DNA of 46,027 bases from Alphaproteobacteria bacterium (GTDB lineage Bacteria > Pseudomonadota > Alphaproteobacteria > Puniceispirillales > Puniceispirillaceae): NCBI GenBank assembly GCA_022425485.1, contig JAKMFL010000048.1, forward strand, positions 7,501-53,527. The letters are read 5' to 3'. The notes below the pieces were generated by a model. The model did not search any database. It was not told the DNA's origin and was given only the letters and a program-made list of their open reading frames with translations. Every line of letters begins with the position of its first letter. Position 1 is the stretch's first letter. Below, piece by piece: positions 35,466 to 46,027 of this stretch. A program made the translations under genes and the position numbers.

Positions 35466-35654
35466 CAAAACCTATCTGTTAAAGTGACAGATAGGCAGGG
35501 GCAGCTAGATGCAAATGTTGTTTCAAGGTGATAAGATGCTGGCGAGGATGGGTCAAGTCTTTGCTAGCCTTACTATTGACGCAGCAAGAGAAGCGAAAAA
35601 GTGCCTCTGATAGCTACTAGGCAATAAAGGGCGCACTAGTCTATAGTGAGCGGC

Positions 35655-38453
35655 ATGACTGTTCCACCCGATTTCTCAAAAAGTAGTTTTTTATGGCCAG
35701 ATCATTCTGGTGTTGTCTGCGTAAGTGCAGAGGGCGAAATAATCCGTCCCATGCCAGCTGAAATCGACAGCTTAATCGCTACTGGTATGCTGGTGGTTTG
35801 CCATAAAAAATGGACGGAAACGCGTTTAGGACAAAACCTTGATAAGGCGTTGGATGTGCTAGAGCTTTTTGCCTTTATCCGTCCGGCTCAAGTTGTCTCA
35901 CCCACCCCTTCGGGGCTTGCTAGTCGGCTAGGTCTCGCCCAGCCAAATAGCGCTGAAGATAAGGTGCTAGCCATCGCAAAGGCTGCCACCCAGCTTCTGG
36001 ATGAATTAGCCGAAATGCCAGAACAGGCGCGTGTTAAGCTGGCTGAAATTGCCGAAATGATGCGGCGTGGGGGGTGGCGTTGGTCTGCACCTATTTTGCT
36101 GCAACTTGGCGTTCATTCTGCTAAGGATGGCCCGCCAGATGGCCGCAATGCTGCTGTTTGGAGCGATATTCCAGAAATTTCTGATAGTGGTTATCGCCCC
36201 CCGCCCGGTATTCAGCCAGTGATGCCAGATGCGGCCAGAACGCGCCTATCTGAAATGCTGGGTAGCCATTCAGAGGTGCGCAGCAGCCAATCTGATTATG
36301 CGGCAGCGGCAGCTTCCATCTTTGCCAGCCCAGATAGCGGCTCTACCCCTTTTATGTTGCTCGCAGAAGCTGGAACAGGCACAGGTAAAACGCTTGGCTA
36401 TCTTGCCCCTGCTAGTTTGTGGGCAGAACGCAATGACGCCGCTGTTTGGATTTCCACCTATACCCGTACATTACAGCATCAAATTGCTGATGAGCTTAGC
36501 CGGCTCTATCCAGACCGAAAGAAGGCTGAAAAAAAGGTGGTTGTGCGAAAGGGGCGCGAGAATTATCTGTGCCTGCTTAATTTAGAAGATGCGCTGGGCC
36601 GGATGCCGGGCGCACCAGCAGATGCTGCTGGGCTTGGACTGATGGCGAGATGGGCAAGCGCAACCCCTGATGGAGACCTAACTGGCAATAGCTTTCCCTC
36701 ATGGCTGGTTGACCTTATCGGCACACGCCTGACGCGGGGGCTGGCAGATAGGCGCGGGGAATGTATTCATTCTGCCTGTACCCATTATCATAAATGCTTT
36801 GTTGAAAAATCTATCCGCACCTCACGCCATGCAGATATCGTGATAGCTAATCATGCGCTGGTGATGATAAATGCGGCTATGGGCGCATCTAAAGGGACAG
36901 ATAAGGGGACAGCTAAGGGGGGGGCAACATCGGGACAGGCTAGTGATAATAATCGGCCCACCCGATATATTTTTGACGAAGGTCACCATATTTTTGACGC
37001 CGCAGACAGCGCCTTTAGTGCGGGTTTAACAGCCTATGAGACAGCAGAGATGCGGTTATGGCTGCGGGGAAGTGAAGATGGCCGGCGTGGGCGTGCACGC
37101 GGATTACAAAAACGCCTTGGCGATCTGATAGCAAATAGCGAAGAAGCCTTAGCGGCACTTGATGCCGCTACGGAAATGGCACGCCTGCTGCCCGGAACGG
37201 GGTGGAAAAAACGAATATCTGAAAATGCGCCCGCAAATGCAGCAGAGCAATTTTTCTGTGCTGTTCGAAATGCGGTTTATCAGCGTGCCAGCGACCCGCA
37301 AAGCCTGTATAATCTGCAAGTAGAGTTGTATCCCGCGACGCAAGATATGCAAGAGAAAGCACAAAAGCTAAAAAATGTGTTTAACGATCTTAGCGTGCCT
37401 CTGACGAAGCTAGCAACCTACCTGCAAGATATTCTAGATGAAAAAGCAGATACGCTAGATAGCCAGACGCGCAACCGTTTAGAAGGTGCACAACGCGGGT
37501 TGATGCGCCGCGCTACCGGCCCGCTGGCCGCTTGGCAGATGATGTTAAATGATTTGCAGCAGGATAGCCGAGAGGGCTTTATCGACTGGATTGAGGTCAC
37601 CAGAAGTGATTTAGGGGACGTAGATGTTGGCCAGCATCGACACTGGCTAGATCCGATGATCCCCTTTAGCGAGAGTGTGCTAGCCCCTGCCCATGGGGTG
37701 GCTGTAACCTCTGCGACCCTGCGCGACAATCAGCTAGAGGACGCAAGCAGTGAGGAAGAGGAATGGCACTCCGCACGGCTTATATCGGGGGCAGCACATC
37801 TGCCGCACCCTGCACTTGTCTCAGCGCATAAATCGCCTTTTGATTATCAAAAACAAGCCCGGATTTTTGTTGTTAACGATATCAGCCGCGAGCGCTATCA
37901 AGCGGTTGCCAGCGCAATGGCAGAGCTGATGAAGGCGGCGGGCGGCGGCAGCCTTGGACTTTTTACCTCTATCGCAAGGCTGAAAAGCACCTACCCTGAA
38001 TTAGAGGCACGGCTGCGGGCAGCAGGGATTCCGCTACATGCCCAGCATATGGACCGGATGAGCCTGCAAACCCTATTACAGCTATTCCGAGAGGATAGCC
38101 ATTCCTGTCTGGTGGGCACGGACGCCGTGCGAGACGGGGTGGATGTGCCGGGCGAGGCTTTGCGGATGATTATCTATGACCGGGTGCCATGGCCCCGTCC
38201 AGATATGTTGTTCAAGGCGCGGGCAAAGTGGCAAGGACGCGATGCATGGACAGACAGAATGACGCGGATGCGCCTGCGTCAAGCCTTTGGCCGCCTCATC
38301 CGCCGCGCCGATGATAAAGGGGTTTTCGTGATGCTGGATAGCCGCCTTCCAACAAGGCTAACCTCAGCCTTTCCAAACGATGTCGAAATTATTCGAACCG
38401 GCCTTGTTGATGCCATCACCCAAAGCCGAAATTTTCTAAAAAGTGAGGGATAA
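35655..38453 (+). CDS. DinG/XPD-like ATP-dependent DNA helicase
   Basis: The 932-residue protein is a superfamily 2 helicase of the DinG/XPD type. Walker A is GTGTGKT at about 240-246 and the DEAH-box variant is DEGHH at about 441-445. Cysteines that probably hold a [4Fe-4S] cluster appear between them (one in ENYLCLLN, then GECIHSACTHYHKC). Motif VI is near the end (RLRQAFGRLIRRADDKG). Such enzymes unwind 5'-3', resolving R-loops or damaged structures. A Gly/Lys/Thr-rich insert at about 413-430 is encoded by 12-bp repeats. The ATG at 35655 or the GTG at 35646 could be the start. Confidence 0.9.
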   Translation: MTVPPDFSKSSFLWPDHSGVVCVSAEGEIIRPMPAEIDSLIATGMLVVCHKKWTETRLGQNLDKALDVLELFAFIRPAQVVSPTPSGLASRLGLAQPNSAEDKVLAIAKAATQLLDELAEMPEQARVKLAEIAEMMRRGGWRWSAPILLQLGVHSAKDGPPDGRNAAVWSDIPEISDSGYRPPPGIQPVMPDAARTRLSEMLGSHSEVRSSQSDYAAAAASIFASPDSGSTPFMLLAEAGTGTGKTLGYLAPASLWAERNDAAVWISTYTRTLQHQIADELSRLYPDRKKAEKKVVVRKGRENYLCLLNLEDALGRMPGAPADAAGLGLMARWASATPDGDLTGNSFPSWLVDLIGTRLTRGLADRRGECIHSACTHYHKCFVEKSIRTSRHADIVIANHALVMINAAMGASKGTDKGTAKGGATSGQASDNNRPTRYIFDEGHHIFDAADSAFSAGLTAYETAEMRLWLRGSEDGRRGRARGLQKRLGDLIANSEEALAALDAATEMARLLPGTGWKKRISENAPANAAEQFFCAVRNAVYQRASDPQSLYNLQVELYPATQDMQEKAQKLKNVFNDLSVPLTKLATYLQDILDEKADTLDSQTRNRLEGAQRGLMRRATGPLAAWQMMLNDLQQDSREGFIDWIEVTRSDLGDVDVGQHRHWLDPMIPFSESVLAPAHGVAVTSATLRDNQLEDASSEEEEWHSARLISGAAHLPHPALVSAHKSPFDYQKQARIFVVNDISRERYQAVASAMAELMKAAGGGSLGLFTSIARLKSTYPELEARLRAAGIPLHAQHMDRMSLQTLLQLFREDSHSCLVGTDAVRDGVDVPGEALRMIIYDRVPWPRPDMLFKARAKWQGRDAWTDRMTRMRLRQAFGRLIRRADDKGVFVMLDSRLPTRLTSAFPNDVEIIRTGLVDAITQSRNFLKSEG
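36891..36914. repeat. In-frame 12-bp tandem duplication in the helicase gene
   Basis: AAAGGGACAGAT is followed by AAGGGGACAGCT and then a run of G. The array encodes a KGTDKGTAKGG insert between the cluster cysteines and the DEGHH box. Confidence 0.75.
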
Positions 38454-38598: not shown

Positions 38599-40257
<1,659 letters not shown>

Positions 40258-40302
40258 TCATCCTTCTTTTAGAGTTCAGTCAAGACGATAGAGAGCGGGA
40301 AA

Positions 40303-40590
40303 TCAGTCGATGATCCCCATAATGTCAGATTCTTTCATGATCAAATAATCCTGACCGTCGATCTTGACTTCGGTTCCCGACCATTTGCCAAACAGAATGC
40401 TGTCGCCAGCCTTGACGTCGAGCGGCTGTACCTTGCCTTGCTCGTCACGCGCACCTGCGCCAACAGCAACAACCTTGCCCTCCATGGGCTTTTCCTTGGC
40501 CGTGTCAGGAATGATAATGCCTCCAGCGGTTTTTTCTTCAGATTCCAAACGCTGGACCAGCACACGGTCGTGAAGGGGCCTGAATTTCAT
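40303..40590 (-). CDS. groES: Co-chaperonin GroES
   Basis: The 95-residue lid of the GroEL chamber begins [20 protein letters not shown] and ends SDIMGIID, with the mobile loop [15 protein letters not shown]. The ATG at 40590 is right behind a strong GGAGGAGAGAG ribosome binding site; frame further upstream covers the CIRCE operator and is not coding. It is the first gene of the operon. Confidence 0.98.
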
Positions 40591-40627
40591 GCCTCTCTCT
40601 CCTCCAGATGAGTTACAATTTAACGTG

Positions 40628-40654
40628 CTGGCACTCGCCGTTAGCGAGTGCCAA
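40628..40654 (-). promoter_or_regulatory. CIRCE operator (HrcA binding site) of groESL
   Basis: On the minus strand TTGGCACTC - 9 bases - GAGTGCCAG matches the CIRCE consensus TTAGCACTC-N9-GAGTGCTAA with one change in each arm that keeps the pairing. It lies between the promoter and the groES ribosome binding site, as expected for repression by HrcA (gene not in this window). Confidence 0.92.
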
Positions 40655-40667
40655 TTTGCACACCGGT

Positions 40668-40696
40668 TAATTGGGCCCAAGGCCCAGTAATGTCAA
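40668..40696 (-). promoter_or_regulatory. groESL promoter
   Basis: On the minus strand TTGACA (40696-40691) and CAATTA (40673-40668) are 17 bases apart, directly ahead of the CIRCE operator. The upstream C (CTTGACA) would also suit a sigma32-type -35 box. Confidence 0.6.
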
Positions 40697-40730
40697 GCAG
40701 ATAGCTAAAAAAAATAACAGTGATTACGAC

Positions 40731-41900
<1,170 letters not shown>

Positions 41901-42323
41901 TCAGGGCGTCGCGTCGCGGCTTGCGGGTGTTGCCAGAACGCGCTGCATCGGTGGTGGTGACAGCGCCAGCGAGCGCCGCCACTGCTTTTCATTCCTCATA
42001 TCAATCTCAACATGGGTGAACCCGAACCGCCGCAGATAATCAGCCTGGTCCGGAATCAGATGCCCGCTGGCCAGAAGCCTGTGACAATAGCCAACGATCT
42101 CACGAAGATGGCGCGCCATGGTAAAGCCGCGCCCATCGGAAAAAGAGGCGAAATGGATGGTGACAGGTGACTGCAACTGCCCGCTGCTGTCAGTTGGCAG
42201 ATCAGCCAGACCCGCCAGTGACGCGCTTGCGTCTATGGCATTGATGTCCCGGTCAACAGGCACCGATCTGCCACTTTGCAGGTCAAACCAGACCCTTTGT
42301 CTGTGCGGTTCAGCCATCACCAT
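41901..42323 (-). CDS. DUF934 protein
   Basis: The 140-residue protein has the DUF934 signature FASFSDGRGFTMARHLREIVGY with DQADYLRRFGFTHVE (key parts). In proteobacteria this family is found almost always beside assimilatory sulfite reductase and is sometimes called an oxidoreductase accessory, with no proven activity. Its start overlaps the end of the reductase gene by 14 bases, so coupling is expected. In most relatives cysH lies next to it; here cysH is missing. Confidence 0.88.
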   Translation of the reverse strand: MVMAEPHRQRVWFDLQSGRSVPVDRDINAIDASASLAGLADLPTDSSGQLQSPVTIHFASFSDGRGFTMARHLREIVGYCHRLLASGHLIPDQADYLRRFGFTHVEIDMRNEKQWRRSLALSPPPMQRVLATPASRDATP

Positions 42324-42855
42324 AGACAGCCTGTTTGAATGGCGTCAGCCCGACGCGGAGCAGATGGTCGCCAAAGCGTTCATCCGTCTTTCTGTTTTCC
42401 AGATACAGAGTCACGACTTCCTCGATCACCGCCGGCACCTCGTCCTCGGCAAAGGACGGGCCGATGATCCGGCCGATGGCCGCTGCCTCGTCGGCGCGCC
42501 CGCCAAGCGAGATCTGGTAATGTTCAACACCCTTCTTGTTGACACCCAGAATGCCTATATCGGCGGCGTGGTGATGCCCGCAGGCATTGATGCAGCCCGA
42601 AATATTCAACCGCAACTTTCCGATTTCGGCACGGCGATCAGGATCGGGAAAGCGCTGAAATATCTTTTCGGCAAGTGGCAGTGACCTGGCATTGGCAAGG
42701 TTGCAGTAATCCAGCCCCGGGCAGGCAATCATATCGCTGATCAACCCTTCCTCGGCCCCGGCCAGCCGGACCTTCAGGGCATCCTTGAACAATGCGGCCA
42801 GATGATCACGCCAGACATGCGGGATGATGATGTTCTGCGTATAGGTGACACGCAA
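42310..42855 (-). CDS. Siroheme nitrite/sulfite reductase, C-terminal fragment
   Basis: This 181-codon frame is the C-terminal quarter of the siroheme reductase. It carries all the cluster ligands: C45 and C51 (CPGLDYC, CX5C) and C88 and C92 (CINAC, CX3C), which bind the [4Fe-4S] cluster and siroheme. It lacks the rest of the enzyme and has no start other than TTG/ATT codons at the duplication. Removing one copy of the 17-bp repeat joins it in frame to the N-terminal part. Alone it could not form an active enzyme; it might complement the other half if translated by coupling. Confidence 0.85.
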   Translation of the reverse strand: MRVTYTQNIIIPHVWRDHLAALFKDALKVRLAGAEEGLISDMIACPGLDYCNLANARSLPLAEKIFQRFPDPDRRAEIGKLRLNISGCINACGHHHAADIGILGVNKKGVEHYQISLGGRADEAAAIGRIIGPSFAEDEVPAVIEEVVTLYLENRKTDERFGDHLLRVGLTPFKQAVYGDG

Positions 42856-42875
42856 TTCTAGGTGACACGCAATTC
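42842..42875. repeat. Perfect 17-bp tandem duplication splitting the reductase gene
   Basis: TAGGTGACACGCAATTC occurs at 42842-42858 and again at 42859-42875 without a mismatch. On the coding strand the unit boundary forms the TAG (42860-42858) that ends the N-terminal fragment, and 17 bases shift the frame. With a single copy the frame reads ELRVTYTQN through the junction. Confidence 0.97.
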
Positions 42876-44222
42876 ACCACGGCCATATGTTTCAGCCAGT
42901 GACGCCATCGCCTCCATTTCCGACGCCGCGGCATCACCGGGCGGTCTGCCAGCAGATTTCAGAGACAGGCTGACATTGGCGTAGCCTTGTGTGTGATGCG
43001 CCATGACATTGGTGCGATACCAGCGGGCGAATGCCGGATCATCATCTGCCGCTTTCGCCAGAGCCGCCTTTGCCGAGGGCGCGGCCGGCAAGTCGGCAAG
43101 GGAAAAATAGCCGGCAATCCGCTGATATTCGGCCACAGGCAAATCGGTTGTGTTGTCCTTTGTCACCTGCCATTCATTGTTCACCGCCTCGCCAAAACTC
43201 TCGATTCCCATGTCATCGACAAGGATTTTGATGCGGGCCTTGTAGATGTTGTCGCGACGCCCGGCAGCGTTATAGACCCGCATGATGGCTTCCAGATAGG
43301 ACAGCAGATGCCGCGCCGGAATGAAATGTGCCAGCTTGCGCGCCACCCGTGGCGTCCGCCCCTGGCCACCACCAACAAACACACGGAATCCCGTCTCACC
43401 ATCGCGGCTCAATGCAAGGCGCAGGCCGATATCGTGAAAAGCAATTGCCGCCCGGTCGTCGGCCGCGGCGGAAATGGCAATCTTGAACTTGCGCGGCAGG
43501 AAGGCGAACTCGGGATGAAGCGTTGACCATTGGCGAACGACTTCGGCCCAGATACGCGGATCCTGCACTTCATCATGCGCCGCGCCGGCAAGCGGATCAG
43601 AGGTCACATTGCGGATACAGTTTCCCGATGTCTGGATGGCATGCATGTCATAGCTGGCAAGCCTGTCCAGAATATCGGGCGCTTCGACCAGCTTGATCCA
43701 GTTGAACTGAATGTTCTGGCGGGTGGTAAAATGGCCGAATCCCCGATCAAAATCACGGGCAATGCCGGCCAGACCACGCATCTGGTGGCTGGACAACACA
43801 CCGTAAGGAATGGCGACGCGCAACATATAGGCATGCAGCTGCAGATACAGGCCGTTTTGCAGGCGCAGCGGCTTGAATTCATCTTCGGTAAGCTCGCCGC
43901 GAAGACGGCGTTCAACCTGATCACGGAACTGCGCCGCGCGCTTGGCAACGAACTGCCGGTCAAAGGAATCATATTGGTATATTGACGGCACCGTGAGCAT
44001 CGCCTTTGCATCTGGCAATGACACCCCATTCACCCGGTCATCTGTTGGCGGCAGGATGCTGGGGCCTCTCGCAGCGCGGATCATCTCGCGTGCCGAAGAC
44101 CCGGCACCGGTATCGTCAGTGACCTCATAGGCGGCGACAACCTCGTCACGCTGTGCCGCGGTGTTGACGATATCGCGTGCGGCGATGATCGCCTCATCGT
44201 CGAACTGTCCGGCAAGCCGCAC
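42858..44222 (-). CDS. Siroheme nitrite/sulfite reductase, N-terminal fragment (with end of a DUF2849 domain)
   Basis: Open for 454 codons from a GTG at 44222. Residues 1 to about 60 are the C-terminal half of DUF2849; the reductase proper starts near ATG 44000 (LTVPSIYQYDSF). It contains two ferredoxin-like half-domains and the first NIR_SIR domain (FTTRQNIQFNWIKL, TSGNCIRNVTSDPLAG) but none of the cluster cysteines, which lie in the next frame. Joined, the reductase would be 557 residues, the usual length for ferredoxin-dependent CysI/NirA-type enzymes. It stops at a TAG created by the 17-bp duplication. The family reduces sulfite to sulfide, or nitrite to ammonia; the neighbours favour sulfite. 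Confidence 0.88.
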   Translation of the reverse strand: MRLAGQFDDEAIIAARDIVNTAAQRDEVVAAYEVTDDTGAGSSAREMIRAARGPSILPPTDDRVNGVSLPDAKAMLTVPSIYQYDSFDRQFVAKRAAQFRDQVERRLRGELTEDEFKPLRLQNGLYLQLHAYMLRVAIPYGVLSSHQMRGLAGIARDFDRGFGHFTTRQNIQFNWIKLVEAPDILDRLASYDMHAIQTSGNCIRNVTSDPLAGAAHDEVQDPRIWAEVVRQWSTLHPEFAFLPRKFKIAISAAADDRAAIAFHDIGLRLALSRDGETGFRVFVGGGQGRTPRVARKLAHFIPARHLLSYLEAIMRVYNAAGRRDNIYKARIKILVDDMGIESFGEAVNNEWQVTKDNTTDLPVAEYQRIAGYFSLADLPAAPSAKAALAKAADDDPAFARWYRTNVMAHHTQGYANVSLSLKSAGRPPGDAAASEMEAMASLAETYGRGELRVT

Positions 44223-44306
44223 ATCCTCGGTCCAGGACAGATCATGGGTCAGCTAGACAACAGATCCGGAGTCCAGCCTGTTGGCGGTAAACTTCACAGC
44301 AGTCAT
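44223..44306 (-). pseudogene. Start of DUF2849 domain, interrupted by TAG at codon 18
   Basis: An ATG at 44306 overlaps the cysG-like stop (ATGA) and reads MTAVKFTANRLDSGSVV, then TAG (44255-44253), then LTHDLSWTED and on in the same frame into the fragment at 44222. This is the DUF2849 family, where this position is normally Tyr (VVYL), so TAC or TAT to TAG is one base change. Normally DUF2849 is a separate gene of about 100 codons; here no stop separates it from the reductase, giving a fusion. Confidence 0.75.
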
Positions 44307-45244
44307 GCCGGTATCCCCGAACTGCCAGCGCTCTTCATTCCGTTATCGGTGAGGATCACCACATCCAGGCCCCGGGCGAGCCGGTCGTCAGCCAGCCTGC
44401 GCTGTGCCCTTGGCCCCACGGCCAGAAGTTCCACCTCGCGGCGCGCAAGCGACAGGACGGCCGGAGATTCGCCTTGCGTATGGATAATCACATCGGCATT
44501 GCGGATGGCCTCGGCAGCAGGGCGTTGCAAATGATCCGGATCATCATGGCCGGACTCAATCACACGCAACCTGCCACTGGCACTGCCATTCACAGATGCG
44601 CTCATACTGGCCATCTGTGCGGTCAGTTTTGCAATCACCCAGCTGTCGGCCTGCGCCGTATCACCATCGATGATACGGGTGCCAATATCGCTCTCGATGA
44701 TCTGATGCTGAAGGCCGCGCCGTCTGGCGGCTGAAAGATGGCGAAGCCGATGCCGGATGCGGTTCAGATAAATGGCAAGGCGGCCATATCCTGTCGGCAG
44801 CATGTCCTCGATTCTGGCACGAAGCCGCTGCGCCAGCACTGGCGAAAATCCGCCTGTGGAAATCGCCACTGTCACCGGATCACGTTCGACAATGGCCCCA
44901 AGATAGAAGCTGCAAAGCGTCGGACAGTCGGGAACATTCACTGGCACACCTGCCTCGCGGGCAATGGTTGCAAGCCGTGTATTCAGGGCCATATCGCCTG
45001 TTTCGATGATGATCAGCGGACGCCCGCGAAACAGGCTGTCTGCCGCCTGCAGGGCGACGCCGGTAATGTGGCGCATCTGCGGGTGGCGCAATTCCCCCGG
45101 CGGCAGGTCCATCCCGGTGACAAGATCGACCACCGGCGCAAAGCCTGCAAGAAGACGGATTTTCGCGGCAAGACCCTGATCAGCGCCGACGACGAGCGGG
45201 GCGACACTGCCAAGATCAATGAATATGGGGAAGCGCTGTGCCAT
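44303..45244 (-). CDS. Siroheme synthase-like precorrin-2 dehydrogenase with degenerate methyltransferase tail
   Basis: Residues 1 to about 215 match the dehydrogenase/ferrochelatase half of CysG: an NAD site (LVVGADQGLAAKIR, with an altered Gly pattern), VNVPDCPTLCSFYLGAIVER, VAISTGGFSPVLAQRLRARI and the dimerisation region. Residues 224-313 align with the first third of the uroporphyrinogen methyltransferase domain (RLRVIESGHDDPDHL, ADVIIHTQ, LARREVELLAVGP). The SAM loop GAGPGD reads ESGHDD and the rest is absent. It would make siroheme from precorrin-2 but not methylate uroporphyrinogen. Its stop overlaps the DUF2849 start, so the short form is probably established. Confidence 0.85.
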   Translation of the reverse strand: MAQRFPIFIDLGSVAPLVVGADQGLAAKIRLLAGFAPVVDLVTGMDLPPGELRHPQMRHITGVALQAADSLFRGRPLIIIETGDMALNTRLATIAREAGVPVNVPDCPTLCSFYLGAIVERDPVTVAISTGGFSPVLAQRLRARIEDMLPTGYGRLAIYLNRIRHRLRHLSAARRRGLQHQIIESDIGTRIIDGDTAQADSWVIAKLTAQMASMSASVNGSASGRLRVIESGHDDPDHLQRPAAEAIRNADVIIHTQGESPAVLSLARREVELLAVGPRAQRRLADDRLARGLDVVILTDNGMKSAGSSGIPA

Positions 45245-45312
45245 CTGGTTTGATCCTGTTATCTGACCGTTCCGCCTCGGCGCGCAGGATCATGGATACT
45301 TTCATCAAGTGG

Positions 45313-45336
45313 CAAAACGGAACACAAAACGGAACG
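45313..45336. repeat. 12-bp tandem duplication
   Basis: CAAAACGGAACA is followed by CAAAACGGAACG. It shows that the duplication habit also occurs in the GC-rich right-hand part of the window. Confidence 0.8.
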
Positions 45337-45507
45337 ACTGTCAGCAATGAAGCTATGAGCGGCCAGCAGGAAAGCAAGGGCGAAACCGGTCGCCGGAAAA
45401 AACTTTTCCCACTGAGATGCGCCGATGATGGTGTCTTTGCCTGACTGTTCCGATTTTCGCGATTTGCCTCCGCCAACCGCTGCATGGATGGCCGAACAAA
45501 TCTCTGT

Positions 45508-45561
45508 GATGCGGCATTTCTGACGATTTGCAAGCCGGGGGGCCGCTTGCTATACCGCATC
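45508..45561 (+). promoter_or_regulatory. Nested inverted repeats in the ctaA leader region
   Basis: GATGCGG (45508-45514) pairs with CCGCATC (45555-45561), and inside them GCAAGC pairs with GCTTGC. A GGTTTTT run follows about 10 bases later, ahead of ctaA. An attenuator or protein-binding leader is possible. Confidence 0.35.
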
Positions 45562-45603
45562 TGCGTATGGGGTTTTTCTGCCTGCAAATTTCGGGGAATC
45601 ACG

Positions 45604-46027
45604 ATGTTGTCATATATGTCTGCAAGCGAGGTTGCAAACCCCGCGCCGATGGCGAAGCGGACCGATTCCCTTGCTTTCTGGTGGTTGCTGGCAATGGCAT
45701 TGCTTGTCGCCATCATGGTCGTGATTGGCGGCATTACACGGCTCACCGGCAGCGGACTGTCGATGGTGGAATGGCGCCCTTTGATGGGAACATTGCCACC
45801 CCTGACAGCCGCCGAGTGGGAGCGTGTATACGCGCTTTATGTTGCGTCGCCGGAATATGCGTCTTTCAACTTCGGCATGGACATGGCCGGCTTCAAACAG
45901 ATTTTCTTCTGGGAATATTTCCACCGTTTGTGGGGACGGCTGCTGGGCGTTGCCTTTGTCGGGCCGCTGTTGTTCCTGATGCTGACCAGCCGCATTCCCA
46001 ACGGGTTTGGCGGCCGGCTGTTTCTGC
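45604..46027 (+). CDS. ctaA: Heme A synthase CtaA (COX15 type), N-terminal part, cut by window end
   Basis: The frame is open from ATG 45604 to the window end (141 codons). It shows a first membrane helix (FWWLLAMALLVAIMVVIGG), the signature GGITRLTGSGLSMVEWRPLM and EYFHRLWGRLLG with a heme-ligand histidine, then the start of a second helix. CtaA hydroxylates the methyl group of heme O to give heme A for cytochrome c oxidase. The pattern is that of the alphaproteobacterial/mitochondrial type 2 form. GGGGAA precedes the start; an ATG four codons later is an alternative. Confidence 0.93.
   Translation, partial: MLSYMSASEVANPAPMAKRTDSLAFWWLLAMALLVAIMVVIGGITRLTGSGLSMVEWRPLMGTLPPLTAAEWERVYALYVASPEYASFNFGMDMAGFKQIFFWEYFHRLWGRLLGVAFVGPLLFLMLTSRIPNGFGGRLFL

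Follow-up and report, generated by a model that had tools for sequence, protein, structure and literature searches.

Assimilatory sulfate reduction is described as incomplete in the SAR116 isolates HIMB100 and IMCC1322, with DMSP and DMSO proposed as sulfur sources, in the accessible parts of PMC3368413; the word 'sulfite' is absent from its main text. Sulfonate monooxygenases yielding sulfite are reported for subclade I in the available portion of PMC12262181. The term 'cysI' was found neither there nor in PMC8547437, and a literature search for SAR116 together with cysI found no paper. Contigs built from two sources are described by the GUNC authors, for whom misassembly is rarer than mis-binning (available part of PMC8201837).

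The DNA analysed here is a stretch of 46,027 nucleotides, hereafter the window (G000:C24:7501-53527, where G000 is the source genome); its end is the contig end. The family is SAR116, with G000 and G004 in genus g1 and G054 in genus g9. As in HIMB100 and IMCC1322, part of the pathway is missing from SAR116 genomes; unlike what the accessible text of PMC3368413 describes for those isolates, the sulfite reductase itself carries lesions here. With the CysI/Sir/NirA reductases the locus shares both half-domains (NIR_SIR and NIR_SIR_ferr), the conserved cysteines and the adjoining cysG-like and oxidoreductase genes, but its frame is broken twice, it has an N-terminal DUF2849 fusion, and the genomes searched yielded no PAPS reductase. 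The account that we favour, and consider reasonably likely as a whole, combines a misjoined g9-like stretch with a natural and recent loss of cysI by two mutations.

A 17-bp tandem duplication interrupts the reductase gene

The initial annotation had claimed that a perfect 17-bp tandem duplication breaks a siroheme sulfite/nitrite reductase gene, and this was borne out. The unit, TAGGTGACACGCAATTC, is present inside cysI (minus strand, 42842..42875) as two exact head-to-tail copies at 42842-42858 and 42859-42875 that are 100% identical, and the Pfam profile NIR_SIR matched the pieces of the gene on both sides, NIR_SIR_ferr matching the upstream piece in addition. No third copy adjoining 42842-42875 was found. 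Elsewhere in the window the 17-mer did not occur at up to two mismatches (chance expectation 0.01), and two matches of it were seen in 0 of 100 shuffled controls. Neither flank continues the repeat, and no microhomology is therefore seen where it begins and ends. A 17-bp target duplication left by a mobile element was also considered and rejected, as no element lies between the copies and microhomology is absent from their ends.

The claim that the duplication makes a TAG and shifts the four cluster cysteines into another frame was likewise confirmed. The stop (42858..42860, minus strand) closes the upstream frame, and the tandem cuts the minus-strand gene into an upstream ORF, 42858-44222, and a second one, 42310-42855. 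The four cysteines (C-X5-C and C-X3-C) are all present in the broken reductase, within CPGLDYC and CINAC, which we take to be the siroheme reductase cluster motif; both lie in ORF 42310-42855, out of frame with the upstream piece. These two pieces are the only NIR_SIR matches in the whole genome G000, and a single continuous reading frame for a CysI/NirA-type reductase is absent from the window copy. The NCBIfam scores of both pieces were all below the curated cut-offs; the gene is assigned from its sequence to the siroheme sulfite or nitrite reductase family, with either sulfite or nitrite as the substrate of the predicted activity. In kind, it would be an ordinary pseudogene.

A second lesion and an intact relative

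Close relatives of the reductase, to which the initial annotation had pointed for comparison, were examined. The best relative among named genomes, at 89% amino-acid identity, was L003 (JADHLH010000005.1). It stems from a metagenome-assembled alphaproteobacterium and is the same contig as G054:C87 (100% match). Its gene (L003:4917-6881) is intact, with a single open frame of 654 residues coding for DUF2849 and then CysI, and contains the identical 17-mer once; aligned with it, the window shows a 17-base insertion. The broken DUF2849-cysI fusion gene of the window spans 42310..44306 on the minus strand. The restored size of 557 codons given earlier did not hold, since DUF2849 is fused ahead of CysI and the intact product has 654 residues; an internal ATG was probably taken as the start for that figure. 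A DUF2849-CysI fusion is found in the window, G049, G054 and G059, whereas DUF2849 forms a separate frame in G055, G057, G010 and G015; the stop at residue 102 of G055 is the end of this separate DUF2849.

Comparison with G054 also revealed a second lesion: codon 18, in the DUF2849 part, is TAG (44253..44255, minus strand) where G054 has TGG. It lies upstream of the duplication in the reading direction, and alone it might spare CysI by reinitiation, which the duplication would not. The window gene thus carries disabling lesions where an orthologue is intact, as a recent pseudogene does.

A reversible switch, in which slippage between one and two copies would turn the reductase on and off, had been raised in the initial annotation, and the identity and tandem arrangement of the copies would suit it. 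It is very improbable here: there are only two 17-bp copies and G054 has a single one, so that several varying copies alone deciding the frame, the mark of a phase-variable switch, were not found, and the independent upstream stop could not be removed by copy loss. An established gene in two pieces would agree with the conserved sequence kept in both, but a split at the 42842-42875 site was reported in none of the 20 other genomes of the order with cysI, several of them with partial copies on short contigs, and we give this reading almost no credence.

The contig changes type within groEL

The window is 84-86% identical to G004 from 21455, the start of the G004 stretch used for comparison, to the end of groEL, and 86-94% identical to G054 over 38608-46027, a g9-type stretch of 7,420 bp that runs up to the contig end. 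The change from g1 to g9 type falls in a GGM-coding repeat (38608..38643), where the longest exact word common to G054 and the G000 contig C43 is 20 nt and is present in the window too. The last g1-type gene ahead of the switch, by comparison with G004, codes for a helicase (35646..38453, plus strand). By comparison with g1 and g9, groEL (38599..40251, minus strand) has a g9-type body with its last few codons of g1 type (GGF end). Beyond it lie groES, of g9 type by comparison with G054 (40303..40590, minus strand), an NAD(P)/FAD oxidoreductase gene with a Pfam Pyr_redox_2 match and 95% identity to L003 over 344 residues (40731..41765, minus strand), presumably fnr and so called here, and a DUF934 gene recognised by its profile match (41901..42323, minus strand). 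On the other side of cysI are a cysG-like siroheme synthase gene (44303..45244, minus strand) and the start of cox15, of g9 type, 94% identical to L003 and cut by the contig end (45589..46026, plus strand). The C-terminal methylase match of the cysG-like product covers only profile positions 8-88 of 212; with just the first part of this domain, precorrin-2 may derive from another enzyme. The cysG-like gene of L003 (4003-4920) has the same partial methylase domain.

The groESL genes of the window were 94.4% identical to those of G054 and 74.3% to those of G004. G000 has another groESL on C43, to which they were 73.3% identical and which in turn was 92.4% identical to that of G004. GroEL ends in MGGMGF in the cassette-bearing genomes G010, G015, G054, G055 and G057; in g1 it ends in MGGMGGF (G004, G005 and G007) or in a shorter GGF form (G001). 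The GroEL of the window joins a g9 body to a g1 end, and that of C43 has a g1 body ending in MGGMGGMM, so both tails are hybrid within the GGM repeat; GGMM is a gammaproteobacterial GroEL ending. GC content was 0.46-0.52 in most of the first 36 kb or so, 0.53-0.545 in the helicase gene and 0.55-0.59 past it, so that composition by itself would not locate a join.

The own groESL, cox15 and aspS of G000 are on C43, without cys genes. In G004 the helicase, groESL, cox15 and aspS genes are all on one contig, and joining the left part of C24 to C43 from groEL onward would reproduce this order. A g9-type continuation past the contig end was not found in G000, where the other matches reach 65-80%. 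On C43, the 2.6 kb beyond groEL had no match in 60 other genomes of the family except for 30 bp in one. Among matches at E <= 1e-100, the fumarase encoded there reaches 80% identity to proteins from other classes of the phylum and no more than 69% to those of alphaproteobacteria; this gene was used for the origin of the tail after a comparison of the PuuD-like protein there, whose best match was 52% identical. No groEL stood beside the PuuD-like relatives in 11 loci examined with flanks of 1.5 kb or less. Where this tail (1-2620), of non-alphaproteobacterial type, meets the groEL repeat, there is probably another chimeric join.

Two side observations concern the same repeat. In L146 (G000:C43, 1-2620) the genes adjoining groEL code for a fumarase, an unknown protein and a urate-oxidase-like membrane protein, at a GC content of about 0.40-0.45. 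Contigs of G005 also break at the groEL 3' end (start of G005:C162, end of G005:C138), as if the repeat troubled assemblers.

The closest relative thus changes abruptly inside a shared repeat while the genome's own version of the locus lies elsewhere in the assembly. Because of the switch from g1 to g9 type, the hybrid GroEL tails and the gene order of G004, we read C24 and C43 as very probably both assembly chimeras at the groEL repeat, a reading made from the sequences themselves. Several independent signs suggest that the last 7.4 kb of the window (38608-46027) would then belong to a SAR116 bacterium from genus g9 or a near relative of that genus, and that the assembler would have attached this g9-like stretch to a g1 contig within the GGM-coding repeat with which groEL ends. 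As in the chimeric contigs of metagenome-assembled genomes in the available part of PMC8201837, DNA of two sources would stand in one contig of a genome with low marker-based contamination; here, in contrast, both sources would be genera within a single family, with the join in the protein-coding repeat of groEL.

A real horizontal transfer would instead have placed a g9 segment with groESL, fnr, DUF934, cysI, cysG and cox15 in the groEL 3' end of a g1 strain, leaving second copies of groESL and cox15, after which cysI decayed. Both junctions, in C24 and C43, are at the groEL 3' end, as an insertion would require. The other junction, however, leads into DNA of quite a different kind, both foreign tails are short and reach contig ends, the g9 part has no continuation in G000, and seven other g1 genomes (four of them less than 80% complete) gave no cysI. 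We regard such a transfer as improbable and retain the chimera.

An assembly artefact, another option of the initial annotation, is therefore likely for the contig and not necessarily so for the repeat. Taking the reductase for this organism's own gene was probably wrong, since a different SAR116 genus is the most likely owner of the stretch. The initial annotation did not include the second lesion, the 7.4-kb stretch from another genus, the cysI-free g1 genomes or the stops in G058 and G059.

Distribution of cysI and of premature stops

cysI was found at E <= 1e-60 in 21 of the 136 genomes of the order, leaving out matches at 27-28% identity (G005, G046) and a short piece in G023, which were too weak. 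The order aspS, cox15, cysG, (DUF2849) cysI, DUF934, fnr, groES, groEL was found in G010, G049, G054, G055 and G057, and G015 has the same cassette order without an fnr match there. In G001, G004, G005, G007 and G000:C43, aspS, cox15, groES and groEL occur without the cassette, and cysI was not found in the seven other g1 genomes, among which G002, G003, G006 and G007 are less than 80% complete.

Premature stops in cysI were present in three of the 21 genomes, G000 included although its copy is attributed to another organism, and all three are g9-type copies: besides the window, cysI is interrupted by a TGA in G059 and by a TAG in G058, the gene being conserved in other respects. Copies of g9 type number nine, namely those of the window, G049, G052 and G054-G059, with G052, G056 and G058 partial. 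G053, also of genus g9, was left out since its cysI is only 53% identical. This copy (G053:C38:2555-4042), at 53% to its own genus and nearer the level of genus g8, is possibly replaced or misplaced.

Natural lesions or sequence errors

We compared cysI with aspS, for which 118 of the 136 genomes had a match (the 18 without one left out, partial genes counted) and 0 of the 118 a premature stop. In this comparison, set up after the stops had been seen, Fisher's exact test gave p = 0.003, and p = 0.025 when two split aspS genes (G002, G016) were counted as broken. In these two genomes aspS comes in two matches with about 0.3 kb of extra DNA between them (G002:C106:5033-7028 and G016:C101:4907-6972). 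A split in a gene expected to be essential looks like misassembly, so gross errors do occur in these assemblies. No premature stops were seen in the flanking genes compared on the same contigs. Non-overlapping segments of sampled genes at 50% identity or more, with stops within 15 residues of the query ends ignored, contained internal stops in 0 of 44 cases in G059 and 1 of 56 in G000. In G058 there was one among 16, close to where the reference ORF starts.

Between the cysI of the window and that of G054, dN/dS was 0.096. Nonsynonymous to synonymous changes were 15:35 on the window branch and 10:50 on the G054 branch (p = 0.11), and relaxed selection on the window branch was thus not significant. 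The cysI lesions are either very young or wrong.

Exact tandem units of 13-60 bp numbered 15 in 272 kb in G000, 10 in 318 kb in G004, 15 in 428 kb in G057, 3 in 60 kb in G054, 1 in 209 kb in G059 and 16 in 199 kb in G058. An excess of short duplications as a sign of faulty assembly was therefore rejected, this class being ordinary in the family. Among the 41 units whose length is not a multiple of three, 38 were checked for reading frames, and two of them, that of the window and one in L276 (G057), were flanked on either side by frames of 150 codons or more, with no frame running through the unit.

The competing possibility is that the contig is chimeric and that errors of sequencing or assembly, in a tail of thin coverage, produced both the extra 17-bp copy and the TAG, so that the g9-like owner would have an intact gene. 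The consensus of a metagenome-assembled genome may contain mistakes, the lesions do fall in a tail reaching the contig end, cysI still shows purifying selection (the low dN/dS), and split aspS genes occur in other metagenome-assembled genomes of the order. Against this stand two lesions in one gene with none in its neighbours, premature stops of the same gene in other g9 genomes and the scarcity of stop-bearing sampled segments. Common short-read assemblers use words longer than 17, and a short-read assembly would need a read spanning the 17-bp junction. We consider such errors unlikely, though well worth keeping in mind.

Of the origins proposed in the initial annotation, natural recent loss is thus the one favoured for the lesion itself, with a sequence error as the residual doubt. 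Both cysI lesions are, on the sequence comparisons above, probably natural and recent: the DUF2849-CysI gene of the true owner would have been inactivated by a nonsense change in the DUF2849 part and by the 17-bp tandem duplication in the CysI part.

Sulfur supply without a detected PAPS reductase

PF01507, the PAPS reductase (CysH) family, was searched in 28 distinct genomes (sets of 9 and 21 with two common to both), many of them incomplete, and no PAPS reductase was found. The seven PF01507 matches, in six genomes, were six CysD and one DndC-like protein; in the positive controls, 14 of 14 genomes were matched. The DndC-like DNA phosphorothioation protein is L228 (G015:C1:809708-810238). 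In the SAR116 genomes covered by this search, CysI is thus not accompanied by any PAPS reductase that could be detected.

In such bacteria CysI could use only sulfite from other sources, for example sulfonates, and we infer that it uses the sulfite released by sulfonate monooxygenases. Reduced sulfur such as DMSP could replace the role of the reductase. With no PAPS reductase found in these bacteria, cysI would be dispensable.

Implications for SAR116

Among the nine g9-type copies, three carry null lesions that differ from one another and would be recent, in a gene conserved in other respects; several independent losses may lie behind them. We hold it to be an evenly balanced matter whether the g9 sulfite reductase, lacking a PAPS reductase, is at present disappearing in several separate events, with g1 having lost the whole cassette earlier. 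If true, ocean bacteria would here display, as a natural series, successive stages in giving up one step of sulfur assimilation. G000 is rated 99.86% complete and 0.04% contaminated, and a genome so rated would credit genus g1 with a sulfite reductase that, on present evidence, g1 does not own. The part worth following is the possible recurrence of broken cysI in genus g9. If the lesions are real, this recurrence means that individual SAR116 strains can be tested for the loss of sulfite assimilation, and it is relevant to the question of which bacteria in the ocean need DMSP or another form of reduced sulfur.
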